Source: Takashimella koratensis (lineage: Eukaryota > Basidiomycota > Tremellomycetes > Trichosporonales > Tetragoniomycetaceae). From it: a stretch of DNA of 64,000 nucleotides. The position numbers were made by a program, and so were the translations under genes. The stretch spans positions 690,149 to 754,148 of the forward strand of contig BCKT01000014.1 of assembly GCA_003116875.1 (NCBI GenBank). The letters run 5' to 3'. Numbering within the stretch: position 1 is the stretch's first letter; every line of letters begins with the position of its first letter. The notes under the pieces were generated by a model. That model did no database searches, had not been told where the DNA came from, and was given only the letters and a program-made list of their open reading frames with translations. Positions 1,798-7,980 of this stretch are shown here, piece by piece.

Positions 1798-3398
1798 ATG
1801 CTCAGTCGTGCTCTCCGCTCCACCTGCCCGGCCACTGCCGCCGCGCGCTTCACTCCTGCTGCCCGCTCCTCGCTCCGCGCGTTCTCCGTCTCCTCGGCTC
1901 GCCGCGAAGAGCTTACGCGCCCGGCTATCGATACCCCGCTCAGTCTATGGAACTTTACCGAGGAGGAGACCATGCTCCGCGAGACGGGTAAGTCGATAAC
2001 CCGAGTGGGTAATTAACCTGCAGTCAAGCGGTTCGCGGAAGACGTGATCGCTCCCAAGGTTCGAGACATGGACGAGGCGGAGAAGATGGACCCGGTGAGT
2101 CTTCTCCCTCGACCCTCGCTAATAAACAGGAAGTCATCCAGGGCTTGTTTGACAATGGCGTAGGTAAAGGAGGTGGGGCACGCTGACACTCAGCTCATGG
2201 GCATCGAGACGCCCGCCGACCTCTCTGGATCCGAATGCAGCTTCACGTCCGCGATCATCGCGATCGAGGAGCTCGCCAAGGTCGACCCCTCGGTGGCGGT
2301 GTTGTGCGACGTGCACAACACGCTCGTGAACACCGTGTTCCGCCTGTACGGGTCACCCGAGATCCAGGCCAAGTGGCTCCCGGACCTCGCTACCAAAAAG
2401 GTAAGCATCGCCATTACCATTGCTGAACTCAGGTCGGGTCGTTCTGCCTCTCCGAGCCAGCATCGGGATCCGACGCGTTTGCGCTGCAGACTACCGCCAA
2501 GCTTGACAAGAGCGGCGGCTTCTACGTCTTGAACGGCAGCAAGATGTAAGAGAGATTCAGGGGCAAGCTGACCCTAGGTGGATCTCCAACTCTGCCGAGG
2601 CCGACACCTTCCTCGTGAGTGCCGTGTGACAACCCAACTGACTGCAGGTCTTTGCAAACGTCGATCCGTCCAAGGGGTACAAAGGGATCACGTGCTTTGT
2701 CCTAAGCAAGGACATGGGCGTGGAGATTGCCAAGAAGGAGGCCAAGGTGGGTCAAGGTGAAGCAGCAGCGCTGATGGTAGCTCGGGATCCGAGCGTCTTC
2801 TACCTGCCTGCTCAGCTTTGACGATGTCAAAGTCCCGAAGGAGAACATTGTCGGCGAAATCGGCAAGGGCTACAAGGTGGGTCCAAAATTTTGACCAAGG
2901 CTGATTCCAGATCGCCATCGAGATCCTCAACGAAGGGCGAATCGGAATCGCCGCGCAAATGGTTGGTCTCGCACAGGGCGCCTTCGACAAGGCCCTCACC
3001 TACGCCTACCAGCGCAAGCAATTTGGAAAGGCGATCGGAGATTTCCAAGGCATGGGTTTCCAGTTTGCCGACGTCGCTACCGAGATTGAAGCCGCCAAGC
3101 TCATGACTTACAACGCGGCGCGTCTCAAGGTGAGCCCAGGAGATATGAGCTGGAGCTGACAGTGTAGGAGGAGGGCCGTCCGTTCACCAAGGAGGCCGCA
3201 ATGGCCAAGTACTATTCCTCGGTCATCGCGCAGAAGGCCGCAGGCTCCGCGATCGAGTGGGCCGGGGGTGTCGGGTTCACTCGTGAGACTGGGATCGAAA
3301 AGTACTGGCGAGACTCGAAGATTGGTGCTATCTACGAAGGTACGAGCAACATTCAGCTCGAGACGATCGCAAAGTTCCTCCGCAAGGAGTACGCTTGA
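1798..3398 (+). CDS. Short/branched-chain acyl-CoA dehydrogenase, mitochondrial
   Basis: FAD enzyme that forms the trans-2 double bond in short or branched acyl-CoAs in mitochondria, passing electrons to ETF. Ten exons: 1798-1987, 2024-2094, 2130-2159, 2194-2400, 2433-2545, 2578-2614, 2648-2746, 2781-2876, 2911-3129 and 3168-3398; every phase closes to give 430 aa, the normal length. The first ~38 residues are Arg/Ser/Ala-rich without acids, a mitochondrial presequence. Family marks are [13 protein letters not shown] (first ACAD signature), the substrate-loop region around [26 protein letters not shown], and the C-terminal [14 protein letters not shown]. The catalytic Glu corresponds to the one in IYEGTS. 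It most resembles the ACADSB/short-chain clade; the exact chain specificity is inferred. Introns are 32-38 nt, among the shortest in the window. Confidence 0.96.
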
Positions 3399-4301
3399 AC
3401 ACTTGATAACGAGGAGTAGGCGTGGGAGGATTTGTACTTTAGTTTGATGAGAGCAATGTATCATTTCATTACTGCGATATGTGTAGAGATCTGAGAATGT
3501 GAGATATGACCAATGACTCGTCCAATCGGTCACGGACACCGGCCTACTCTGCCGTTAAGTACCCTTAGGGTAGACTCCACCAAAGGACGGAGACCTACCA
3601 CATCGGACAAGAGAGAAAAGTACGCGAAGCAAGGCCGTAGATGTATATATACGGTCCAGTAGTAGTCTTGTGTCACAGCGCCGTTATCTCGTTAGCGTGA
3701 TAAAGAACTACGCTAAGCCATGAGATCAAGAGCATATATATATATATTCATCACGATTCGTGAACCGATAGATGCTTCTTCGTCGAATGAATATTTTGTC
3801 TTTCTAGTCTACCAGCGGATATCGTTGAATGACTCATCAGAGGGCAACTGCTACTGTACCGCTACGACATCTTGATTTTCCTCGTCAAATGTTGTATTAT
3901 ACAACCAGCATTACTTGCATCGTAGTTGCGGTCACGGTCTACCAAAGGGACCCACCAGTGATACGCCCATCACACGATCGGTCACGACATCGTACACGGC
4001 GTTGTAGACGATTGGCAACCGATGAACACTGTTTCCATCGAGGAATTCCAGACTTCTTCCTCGCCAGAGTTTAAATCCCGAGCAAGAGCATCGATGACTC
4101 ATAGACATCTGTTTTGCTCGTGGGTAGGGCAACGTGTTTGAATGATGGGTCCAGACCGGCTGACGCGGTCTTGGAGGAGGAGCTTATTATCTATAGGGTT
4201 GTATGCGCATTCGTCACCTTGTTCGCGACCGCGTTTTCTCGTTCTGTATAAAGCCTCTTGACTTTCCCACCTACCTACCTCCCTACCCGATAACACTGAA
4301 A
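3399..4301. other. Intergenic region, no gene recognised
   Basis: This ~900-bp AT-richer stretch lies between two plus-strand genes. It holds a short (TA)n run near 3735-3748 and no reading frame with protein-like composition or splice structure. The last ~60 bp is a CT-rich leader (CCTACCTACCTCC) for the next gene. Scattered short frames on both strands look random. Confidence 0.6.
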
Positions 4302-4817
4302 ATGGGCGGCACTACTTCTAAGACGGACAACACGACTTCTGCTAATGATGAGGAGGAGACGTCCGTAAGTGCAAGTACCGGGTCAAGAAGAGGACAGTGA
4401 CATGACGGCTAATGACACTGCGGGGGATAGCTCGGCGTCTCTTCTCCTGGGACCTCCCCTGTGACCTCCAAGCACGACGAGGACGCAGACATCCGCGACG
4501 TCCAAGGCATCACTCTCGACAAGGCGACACCCGACACGTCACAAGAGGTGAGTAAAGCACGTCGTATACACGCTTATAGATAGAATATATCTCCACCGCA
4601 CGTGCCAATTCAGATGCCACCGGCTGGAGATGAACTGTTGCTCTGGCACGCAGAAACGTTCCCGTTTGGTCATCCTCCATTGTCTATCCGTTTCGTTGGG
4701 ACTAATGCCTGGAAGGCGATAAAGGTCGAATTGGAAGATGCCTCTGTGATCTTAAACCGACTTCAGAGCGGAGTGGCAGATGTCAAGGCAAAGCTGTCAA
4801 CTATGAGGGAGGATTAA
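4302..4817 (+). CDS. Small acidic protein of unknown function
   Basis: Three exons, about 4302-4364, 4431-4547 and 4584-4817, read in phase to 137 aa with a TAA stop. The N-terminus starts MGGTTSK, and Gly2 could be N-myristoylated (MGxxxS/T pattern); it is followed by an acidic Ser/Thr-rich stretch. The C-terminal ~75 residues are better ordered: a hydrophobic segment around LLLWHAETFPFG and a final amphipathic helix with ASVILNRLQSGVADVKAKL. No known domain was recognised. The start sits directly after a CT-rich leader, which supports it. It could be a lineage-specific gene. Confidence 0.55.
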
Positions 4818-5324: not shown

Positions 5325-6023
5325 ATGCAAGATACCCAGACACCCCCGGTTCAGCCCTCGGGCATACCTTCCAACGGCCCCAGGTGGGCGACAAACGACC
5401 AACCTTCTGCTTCGGCGACGGCGGTGGGTGGTGGTGATGATGGAGGTGATGGAGGTGGTAGTGGTCGTGCAGGTAGCGGAACCCTCGACGACGAGCTCTC
5501 GGATGAAGAGGACGAGCAGCTGAAGAAAGAAGGAAAGGTATGGGTTATGCAACGTGGGACTCGCTGACACCCTCTCAGATTCACCTCATCCTCATAGTAA
5601 GCACGAGATCCATGGTTCAGCGCTGATCCCGCAGGGCCAAGACTTCAAATTCAGCGTCCTCGTCAAGCCGAACACCAAGATGCTCAAGCTCTACCTCATG
5701 GTGGCTGCCAAGCGGAACATCGACGTCAGTAAGTCTTCCCCCCCTCCCCCCCCCTCCCCCAGCTTGACCGGCATCGAATAGCTGGCAACAATCTACCAAT
5801 AGCTTGTCCTGCTAGTGAGCTGACATGCGGCCAGATTCGTTCAGGCTCCAGCTCGACGGCAAGGGGCTCCGAAAAGAGACCAAAGTCAGCGAGCACGGGA
5901 TGAAGCTCGGGAGGAGGTACCCCGTGGACATTATGATTCAACAGGTAAGCCATCATGACCACGCGTAATTTTGGTCGAGGGTGGATACTGATGGACGTCT
6001 AGGAGGGTGGGGCCCGGGAATAA
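5325..6023 (+). CDS. SUMO-like protein A with processable Gly-Gly C-terminus
   Basis: Five exons: 5325-5537, 5579-5596 (18 nt), 5635-5728, 5835-5944 and 6003-6023, giving 151 aa. Residues 1-53 are Gly/Ser/Pro-rich and disordered, followed by an acidic motif DDELSDEEDEQLKKEGK (55-71) and then a beta-grasp domain: strand IHLILI, FKFSVLVKPNTKMLKLYLM, the NSFRLQLDGKGL hairpin, and the last strand PVDIMIQQ. The C-terminus is EGGARE, i.e. a di-Gly (147-148) followed by three residues, the layout of a SUMO/ubiquitin-like precursor needing C-terminal trimming. Sequence identity to canonical SMT3 looks low; the fold call rests on pattern (hydrophobic spacing, NS-RL-G hairpin, terminal Gly-Gly). It could alternatively belong to the Rad60/NIP45 SUMO-like domain class. 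Its tandem paralogue follows. Intron 3 is long (106 nt) and carries a poly-C run. Confidence 0.7.
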
Positions 6024-6372
6024 AAAAAGGAGCGAGATTAAGCGCACAGGCCACCAGCTACCTCGCAGTCAGTCTCGCGGTATACTGGGGATATATTGCA
6101 TGTGATCCACTTCAAGGTTTGCTCCCATAGCTGTGTCGTAGGTTGCAGGTCAACAAGAATGAAGATGTATACGTGCAGGGTTTCCCTTCGGTGTCGTTTT
6201 GTAGTTTGGGCGATGATGGCCTGATGGCCGTCACGCTATTGAGCACGTCCCTCCATCAAAACCCGAGAAAAAATAGGTTGAACCACTTGATTCAACTTTG
6301 CAGGATAAGACTGAACCTCATCTTGCATCGACTCATCACCAGCCTTCGCGATAGAAGCCCCAACACAGCGAT
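6024..6372. other. Spacer between the two SUMO-like genes
   Basis: The 349 bp contain the terminator of gene A and the promoter of gene B. No coding frame consistent with splicing into either gene was found; a frame starting at 6143 runs into exon 2 of gene B but lacks protein-like composition before 6474. Confidence 0.4.
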
Positions 6373-7073
6373 ATGGGCAAGAGCACTGGTGAGTACAGCG
6401 CCGAGTAGTGGCGCTGCGATGTGGCACCGGGTAATTGCCAACAACCGCTGCACCCTCACTCACCGTCCCCTAGAGCACCGCAAGCCCATTCGACCCCAGC
6501 CTTACCTTCGGGAGCCCGGTCCACCTGGTGCAAAAGAGTTCTTCCAAAACACATATCGCGATGAATCATCGCCCGACGAATTGGACGAGGAGGATCCGGA
6601 ACTGCTGCGTCAGGGAAGGGTGAGCAACTCTTGATCCCTTCCGCACACGATGCTTGCTGACTGACCTCAATGGACAGATTGGACTCATCCTCAAGGTTAG
6701 CGAGATTCATTTCCGAGACTAACGGCCAGACTTTGACGGGCCGACTAGACGCCGAAGTCGTCGTCAAGCCCAACACGTCTGTCTCGCGGATCGTCGGCTT
6801 GTTACAAAGACTCCAGGGATACGACAGTAAGCTCCTGCCTTTCATTGTGTCGGTGTGCCCCAAGGCTGAATCATCGTTTCACGGAAAAGTCAACCATATT
6901 CGGTTGGTATGCGCCGGGCGGCAATTGAATCTCGAGCCAGGATACAAGTTCTCGCAAACAGGCCTCAAGGTCGGTCGCGTCTACCATGTTTGCGTTGTAC
7001 TCAGGCTGGTGAGTAATGTATCTCTCGGAATCAACTTTGACACGTTCTCAGACAGGTTGTTAGTCATGAGTGA
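6373..7073 (+). CDS. SUMO-like protein B, paralogue lacking C-terminal Gly-Gly
   Basis: Six exons: 6373-6388, 6474-6619, 6678-6695 (18 nt), 6730-6826, 6890-7008 and 7056-7073, giving 137 aa. The layout copies gene A: an acidic motif SPDELDEEDPELLRQGR, the 18-nt exon coding IGLILK, a strand DAEVVVKPNTSVSRI, the hairpin NHIRLVCAGRQLNL, and a last strand VYHVCVVLRL. The protein ends VVSHE, so there is no di-Gly and it cannot be conjugated in the usual way; it may act as a SUMO-like interaction domain. All four introns flanking the domain sit at the same positions and phases as in gene A. The fourth intron (6827-6889) would end in AAG and is also open if retained (+21 codons), so retention is possible. 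The start gives MGKSTEH; a Gly2 as in the gene at 4302 is notable. Function unproven. Confidence 0.62.
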
Positions 7074-7444: not shown

Positions 7445-7774
7445 TTAATATGTGCCTACACCTCCTCGGCGCCCGGCTCGGCGACCACCAGAGCAGCAGC
7501 CGCAGGTGATGAAGTTGAAGATGGCGGTCAAAACGGCGGCGATACCGTTGAAGCTATGGGTTGTCAGCGGTGGTCGTGGGGTACAAGGGGTAGATGAGAT
7601 ATGTGAGTTGGGTGGGATAGTCGTCAAGGCTTGGGAGTGGGGAAAGGGGTGATGGGTAGATGAGTGGAGGATGAAGACGAGAAGGGTCGACACTCACATG
7701 GCCATCAAGACGCTAGCGATAGCGGAGACGACAGCATCGAGAGCAGATGCGATAGCAGAGAAGATACCACCCAT
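7445..7774 (-). CDS. 61-aa small hydrophobic protein with CC-basic tail
   Basis: Two exons on the minus strand, 7774-7698 and 7553-7445 (intron 144 nt), give 61 aa. The first ~44 residues form one or two amphipathic/hydrophobic segments (MGGIFSAIASALDAVVSAIA..., then FNGIAAVLTAIFNFITCGCC), followed by a Gly/Arg-rich tail ending GGVGTY. Small fungal proteins with this layout (hydrophobic body, TCxCC, then a GGRR-type tail) are common and uncharacterised; the Cys cluster could be palmitoylated and the protein membrane-associated (inference). A TATA box and CRE palindrome upstream suggest a strongly regulated, possibly abundant transcript. The intron junction restores phase exactly (AT|C). Confidence 0.72.
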
Positions 7775-7980
7775 GATTGTTGTTTAGGTTGTAGGTGTAG
7801 GTGTTGTAGTTTAGTTGTGGTGTGCGTTAAACGATTCGGTTGAAAGGTTGGGAAGTTAGAGGAGTGACAGCTCGGCGGCAAGGAAGGGTGTTACTTTATA
7901 TATACCTTCGGAGGGTTTGGCGACGGCGGCGGCGGTGGTGGTGGTGGTCACTTTGACGTCAAAGACTTGTTACGTCACTG
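7775..7980 (-). promoter_or_regulatory. TATA box and CRE-type sites of the small hydrophobic protein gene
   Basis: On the minus strand TATATAAA lies at 7902-7895, about 120 nt before the ATG at 7774, a true TATA promoter, which is unusual here. Further upstream are a perfect CRE palindrome TGACGTCA (7954-7961) and a second half-site TGACGTA on the minus strand (7977-7971), plus a (GGC/GGT)n run (7921-7948). These fit bZIP control, inferred from the motifs only. Confidence 0.55.

Follow-up and report, generated by a model that had tools for sequence, protein, structure and literature searches.

The SUMO-like domains of Rad60, Esc2 and NIP45 are carried inside larger proteins, have no Gly-Gly and act by binding. 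The number of SUMOs is given as one in yeast and eight in Arabidopsis in PMC8415633; PMC7096222 likewise describes a sole SUMO protein in S. cerevisiae and lists, by BLASTP, the SUMO machinery of four medically relevant fungi. In plants, according to PMC6680281, SUMO genes occur as tandem copies (Arabidopsis SUMO2/3, SUMO4/6 and SUMO7/8, and the grass pair GSUL2/DSUL), some family members are without diGly and some have been called pseudogenes. The same paper describes, ahead of the fold of the archetype plant SUMOs, a motif QEE[D/E]KK*P that is probably an internal acceptor site (PMC6680281). Searches of the open literature turned up no account of a second, divergent pair of SUMO-like genes in any basidiomycete.

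The locus described here is a tandem pair of small genes, A and B, in Takashimella koratensis. The stretch of DNA analyzed (the window) comprises 64,000 nucleotides, C14:690149-754148, of an assembly of 25.1 Mb in 24 contigs. Joining the predicted exons yields open frames of 151 aa for gene A (exons 5325-6023) and 137 aa for gene B (exons 6373-7073), both on the + strand. Every exon below was defined by a predicted splice join, and any additional support is given in brackets.

Gene A exon 1, 5325..5537, + strand: Gly-rich and acidic tail, ending ...DELSDEEDEQLKKEGK
Gene A exon 2, 5579..5596, + strand: 18 nt, strand beta-1, IHLILI
Gene A exon 3, 5635..5728, + strand: beta-2 and helix 1 (Pfam ubiquitin and Rad60-SLD)
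Gene A exon 4, 5835..5944, + strand: beta-3 to beta-5 (Pfam)
Gene A exon 5, 6003..6023, + strand: 21 nt, EGGARE and stop, that is, Gly-Gly plus three residues
Gene B exon 1, 6373..6388, + strand: start uncertain (upstream frame open to 6131)
Gene B exon 2, 6474..6619, + strand: tail, ending DELDEEDPELLRQGR
Gene B exon 3, 6678..6695, + strand: 18 nt, strand beta-1, IGLILK; donor GTTAGC
Gene B exon 4, 6730..6826, + strand: beta-2 and helix 1
Gene B exon 5, 6890..7008, + strand: beta-3 to beta-5, ending VVLRL (ubiquitin similarity)
Gene B exon 6, 7056..7073, + strand: 18 nt, VVSHE and stop, without Gly-Gly

The introns are 41, 38, 106 and 58 nt long in A and 85, 58, 34, 63 and 47 nt long in B, and all nine are GT-AG. 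Several acceptors are preceded by CTGAC, CTGAT or CTAAC-like sequences, read by eye, which we take to be branch points. The weakest intron of B is intron 3 (34 nt, donor GTTAGC), whose retention introduces an in-frame stop; the least certain point of the gene is its start, because the exon 2 frame remains open upstream.

The C-termini of the two proteins depend on the last splice of each gene. Gene A ends in QQEGG-ARE, a Gly-Gly followed by a removable tail, as the original prediction had stated, provided that this splice is right. Three acceptors of the last intron place GG directly after QQ or one residue further on (5980 giving GGY, 6003 giving EGGARE and 6006 giving GGARE), so the diGly does not depend on any single acceptor, the one at 5980 being poor-looking (GAG). 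For gene B the most plausible splice gives LRL-VVSHE, and the predicted ending without Gly-Gly also stands under the nearest alternatives: the neighboring acceptor at 7052 gives LRLTGC and retention of the intron gives LRLVSNV...VMSE. When the acceptors up to 7506 were listed, keeping only the ones that reach a stop within 60 codons, 28 were obtained, namely 7052, 7056 and 26 others, and only two of these 26 (7303 and 7307, purine-rich upstream and poor-looking by eye) place GG directly after LRL. A psi-K-x-E-type site occurs once in gene A (LKKE at residue 66, in the N-terminal tail encoded by exon 1) and nowhere in gene B. Compared with the plant acceptor motif, the tail of A is similar (EEDEQLKKE, with the one LKKE), whereas that of B reads EEDPELLRQG and has no site.

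The upstream acceptor within the last intron of A (5945-6002), which gives QQ-GGY and a stop, can be compared with the library SUMOs that end in VGGY (P0002, P0020 and P0026, from Kwoniella and Cryptococcus). Among the Tremellomycete SUMO annotations, three models appear to be wrongly spliced around the last mini-exon, where the SMT3 of T. koratensis has an exon of 20 nt. Gly-Gly is missing from P0018 (Vanrija) and P0019 (Cutaneotrichosporon), and P0040 (Saitozyma) keeps VGGC after an insert.

The paralogy of A and B is evident from both their sequences and their exon structure. BLASTP aligns them with 34/93 identical residues at E 1e-13, and their alignment score was reached by none of 1000 shuffles (z 16.8). 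The joined exons confirm that both have an acidic motif directly before the domain (DELSDEEDEQ in A and DELDEEDPE in B) and a common 18-nt beta-1 exon coding the predicted I-x-L-I-L, and the duplication proposed from these features is thereby upheld. The related claim of four introns at the same positions and phases holds in part. Four introns are common to the two genes with phases 0,0,1,0 in each; introns 1 and 4 fall in the same alignment column, intron 2 falls in the same column in one alignment and two columns off in another (depending on gap placement), and intron 3 is one codon apart. Because B has a fifth, 5' intron that is absent from A, the count of four applies to the shared introns only. 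The alignment also places in both proteins a two-residue insert before the last strand (RRYPVD in A and RVYHVC in B) that is absent from ubiquitin and SMT3. Across 94 aligned codons the two genes have the same base 37, 51 and 41 times at the first, second and third codon position, respectively, so the duplication is old. A search of the genome found no third copy, and the matches beyond the pair itself were weak (E 0.35 and above for A, and ubiquitin at E 0.09 and 0.24 for B). It is therefore well supported that the pair arose long ago by tandem duplication from a ubiquitin-like gene so far unseen elsewhere.

Both proteins are predicted from sequence to have the ubiquitin fold, clearly for A and more weakly for B taken alone, and the beta-grasp-like domain of the original prediction is retained with this distinction. 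At 14 chosen positions of the presumed ubiquitin core, all 14 residues are hydrophobic in A and in B; none of 100000 random draws equaled this, a figure that overstates the case because the alignment was a manual one and the core positions are presumed. A contiguous piece of gene B (6730-7008, without beta-1 and with intron 4 retained, which is in frame because this intron is 63 nt without a stop) gave a predicted structure with a mean pLDDT of 49.2, too low for the fold to be read from it.

Gene A scores just over the Pfam cut-offs for both ubiquitin (25.9 bits against 25.4) and Rad60-SLD (PF11976; 24.9 bits against 23.8). In the PDB the closest sequence matches of A are to SUMO chains, at E 5.3e-4 (a fusion matched partly over its Gly-rich linker) and at E 6.6e-4 (5jp1). 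Against a profile of 61 library SUMOs it scores 19.2 bits, the best of 4000 shuffled decoys reaching 8.3; the Rad60 SLD2 of the organism itself, a domain without Gly-Gly, comes close to this value on the same profile (18.8 bits). Shuffle z values for A are 7.4 against its own SMT3, 4.4 against its own Rad60 SLD2 and 1.2 against its own ubiquitin. At ubiquitin positions 8, 44, 68 and 70 it has Q, Q, D and M, followed by I-Q-Q-E-G-G. The expectation of a SUMO-like protein with a processable-looking tail is thus supported by Pfam, by the SUMO profile and by QQEGG-ARE, and A would appear to lean to SUMO, if modestly.

Gene B behaves differently, and its description as a SUMO-like gene was not sustained. 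Its z values are 9.6 against its own ubiquitin, 0.8 against its own SMT3 and 2.3 against its own Rad60 SLD2, and its 5.3 bits on the SUMO profile lie inside the range of the shuffled decoys; B as a SUMO was rejected by sequence, the scores against SMT3 and on the SUMO profile being at noise level. Pfam gives it ubiquitin only, at 16.3 bits and E 0.0082, below the cut-off of 25.4, with no Rad60-SLD match at E 1. Among the best 60 of 254 PDB matches, those to single ubiquitin and NEDD8 chains have E 3e-4 to 7e-3, and the lowest E-values arise because polyubiquitin repeats are summed. Like ubiquitin and NEDD8, B has a KTLTG loop, AG-x-QL, an LRL tail (at 71-73) and L, V and V at ubiquitin positions 8, 44 and 70, with C at 68; it differs from them in having VVS where ubiquitin has RGG, an N-terminal tail and the two-residue insert before beta-5 that is also found in A. 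Because A leans to SUMO and B scores with ubiquitin, the two SUMO-like genes are better put as one apparently SUMO-leaning and one apparently ubiquitin-leaning gene forming a single divergent pair.

Neither gene is the canonical SMT3 of the organism, in agreement with the original prediction. The genome search identified a separate SMT3 at C6:206878-205904, with five exons, phases 1,0,2,1, a last exon of 20 nt and the ending QVGGSF, and A as SMT3 was accordingly rejected. Of the 61 library SUMOs scored, the closest to this SMT3 is that of Cryptotrichosporon argae (Tremellomycete, Trichosporonales), with 83/101 aligned residues when the hand-typed SMT3 sequence was used. SMT3 and A share an acidic N-terminal tail followed by a ubiquitin-type domain and, in a mini last exon (20 and 21 nt, respectively), Q-x-GG plus a short tail, but A is only 30% identical to SMT3, its domain is basic (net charge +7, compared with +6 for B and -3 for SMT3) and its intron phases differ. 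B, in contrast to SMT3, has no Gly-Gly and no SUMO-level score. The introns of SMT3 are unlike those of A and B, the last being two bases from the last intron of A in the protein alignment, and the first exons of three ubiquitin genes (L003, L008 and L001) have their donor after 20 nt, compared with the 18-nt beta-1 exon of A and B; such near coincidences could reflect common ancestry or be accidental. Near C6:1270868 lies a Rad60-like gene, so named from its domains, two of which are SUMO-like. The SUMO-like domains of Rad60, Esc2 and NIP45 differ from A and B in being part of a larger protein, and the z of 4.4 between A and SLD2 compares with only 2.3 for B.

The descent of the pair was approached with a tree and with a joint profile. 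In the tree A and B grouped with ubiquitin and apart from SUMO at 99/97, a grouping that carries no weight because the end branches are so long (10 changes per column for ubiquitin, 10 for SLD2, 7.8 for B and 3.2 for A). A profile of A and B searched against the PDB returned polyubiquitin first, with summed repeats, and then SUMO and ubiquitin chains mixed.

Searches for orthologues used a protein library that holds Tremellomycete SUMOs. Gene A alone yielded 99 candidates, all of them weaker than E 10, and the core of A and B yielded 27 candidates and no match; diverged orthologues could be missed because these searches need shared 5-residue words. A three-row alignment that included SMT3 retrieved 61 proteins at E 0.01, and the 33 of them inspected by eye were all canonical SUMOs or SUMO gene models. 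An orthologue of A or B is not apparent among the 61, since the best single matches reach only 27.5 bits for A (P0045) and 13.5 bits for B (P0029). NCBIfam, whose models serve prokaryote annotation, gave nothing.

Searches of the genome exon by exon, with limited candidates, revealed no second conjugation set (E1/E2), and a second copy could be missed by searches of this kind. The Uba2 UbL domain gave one match (C11), at 25 bits alone and 39.7 bits with its frame neighbors against a cut-off of 30.8. Nine matches came up for Ubc9. The one on C13 has 77% identity; the remaining eight, which include the top match by E-value (C4, 43%), lie at 32-48%, in keeping with other E2s. C48 protease matches were found on C10 (three pieces) and C13 (one piece, with a TAG inside).

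No enzyme partner was seen adjoining A and B when Pfam was applied to 28 of the 45 non-overlapping ORFs of the window and to two shorter pieces, a scan that lay beyond position 4400 and took in the frame at 4584. Matches were obtained in 7 of the 30 sequences scanned: HSP70, Dfp1/Him1, Cas1 acyltransferase, SNF2, class I tRNA synthetase, Ipi1 and NAD-GH, the last of which, on the strand opposite HSP70, is probably spurious. Upstream of A lies a small acidic gene (4301-4817, + strand, joins read by eye) whose last exon probably starts near 4615 (MPPAGDELLLWHAETFPFGHPP...), and downstream of B a gene for a small hydrophobic protein (7445-7775, - strand, by eye); neither the piece 4584-4814 of the former nor the piece 7445-7690 of the latter had a Pfam match. 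Farther upstream, the window contains at 1-760 and 1798-3400 (+ strand) what appear by eye to be an acetate-kinase-like end and an acyl-CoA-dehydrogenase-like gene.

The reading that we tentatively favor, to which we give somewhat less than an even chance, is that A would be a second SUMO-type modifier served by the enzymes of SMT3, and that B would stay unconjugated and act as a binding partner or decoy. The two might, as first suggested, work as a local regulatory pair. Gene A would be translated as a precursor from which a Ulp-type protease removes the residues after Gly-Gly, and would then be conjugated, at a low rate or onto few targets, by the Aos1-Uba2/Ubc9 set that would also serve SMT3; its tail keeps the Gln that SUMO has two residues before Gly-Gly. 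Lacking Gly-Gly, gene B could not be conjugated; it might exist as a free protein of the ubiquitin fold whose contacts with partners are non-covalent, perhaps made at ubiquitin-binding surfaces and not at SUMO-binding ones.

Several results weigh against the favored reading: SLD2 does nearly as well as A on the SUMO profile, the joint profile returns SUMO and ubiquitin chains mixed, the long-branched tree has the pair beside ubiquitin, and the codon score of B is weak. The SMT3 enzymes may refuse A, because its domain is basic (net +7) and that of SMT3 is at -3. This reversal of charge, together with the failure to see a second E1 or E2 in the exon-wise searches or an orthologue among the library proteins, would suit a reading in which both proteins bind without being conjugated and the Gly-Gly of A is an unused leftover; we consider it rather unlikely, given that at 30% identity to SMT3 gene A still keeps the Gly-Gly, the Gln two before it and the short tail. 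If A is instead conjugatable, its reversed charge would imply a different set of readers, and the pair could be a lineage-specific two-gene module in which A carries a SUMO tail and B, whose binding face is ubiquitin-like, is an inbuilt competitor that stands between the SUMO system and that of ubiquitin, an arrangement that we judge improbable.

Only A may be functional, with B a decaying copy on its way to becoming a pseudogene. We hold this to be unlikely and nonetheless a real rival. B has lost Gly-Gly, its third intron is only 34 nt with the donor GTTAGC, and its codon score is weak, being reached by 217 of 5000 random stretches of the window against 42 of 5000 for A, figures that are conservative because the random stretches include real genes; the plant tandem copies, moreover, include pseudogenes and diGly-less copies (PMC6680281). 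Against such decay, B is open over six exons with all sites GT-AG, a run of 136 random codons having a 0.15% chance of containing no stop, and it retains the hydrophobic core (in the hand alignment) and its similarity to ubiquitin. It is far less probable still that the exon joins are wrong and that the locus holds a single gene or encodes a fusion of two domains: the start of B is unsure, its frame being open upstream to 6131, but A has its own stop at 6021-6023 and the joins of the two genes give matching phases and homologous domains.

The fungal pair is real and divergent, and its close precedents are in plants. In plants too, tandem copies exist beside an archetype SUMO, and some members of the family are diGly-less and conjugation-deficient; the plant copies have been traced to SUMO by collinearity and trees (PMC6680281), whereas the fungal pair may descend from SUMO or from ubiquitin. 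If A is a second modifier beside a Gly-Gly-less sister, the pair would offer a natural test of two questions: by what route new ubiquitin-like modifiers arise, and whether the loss of Gly-Gly turns a modifier into a decoy.
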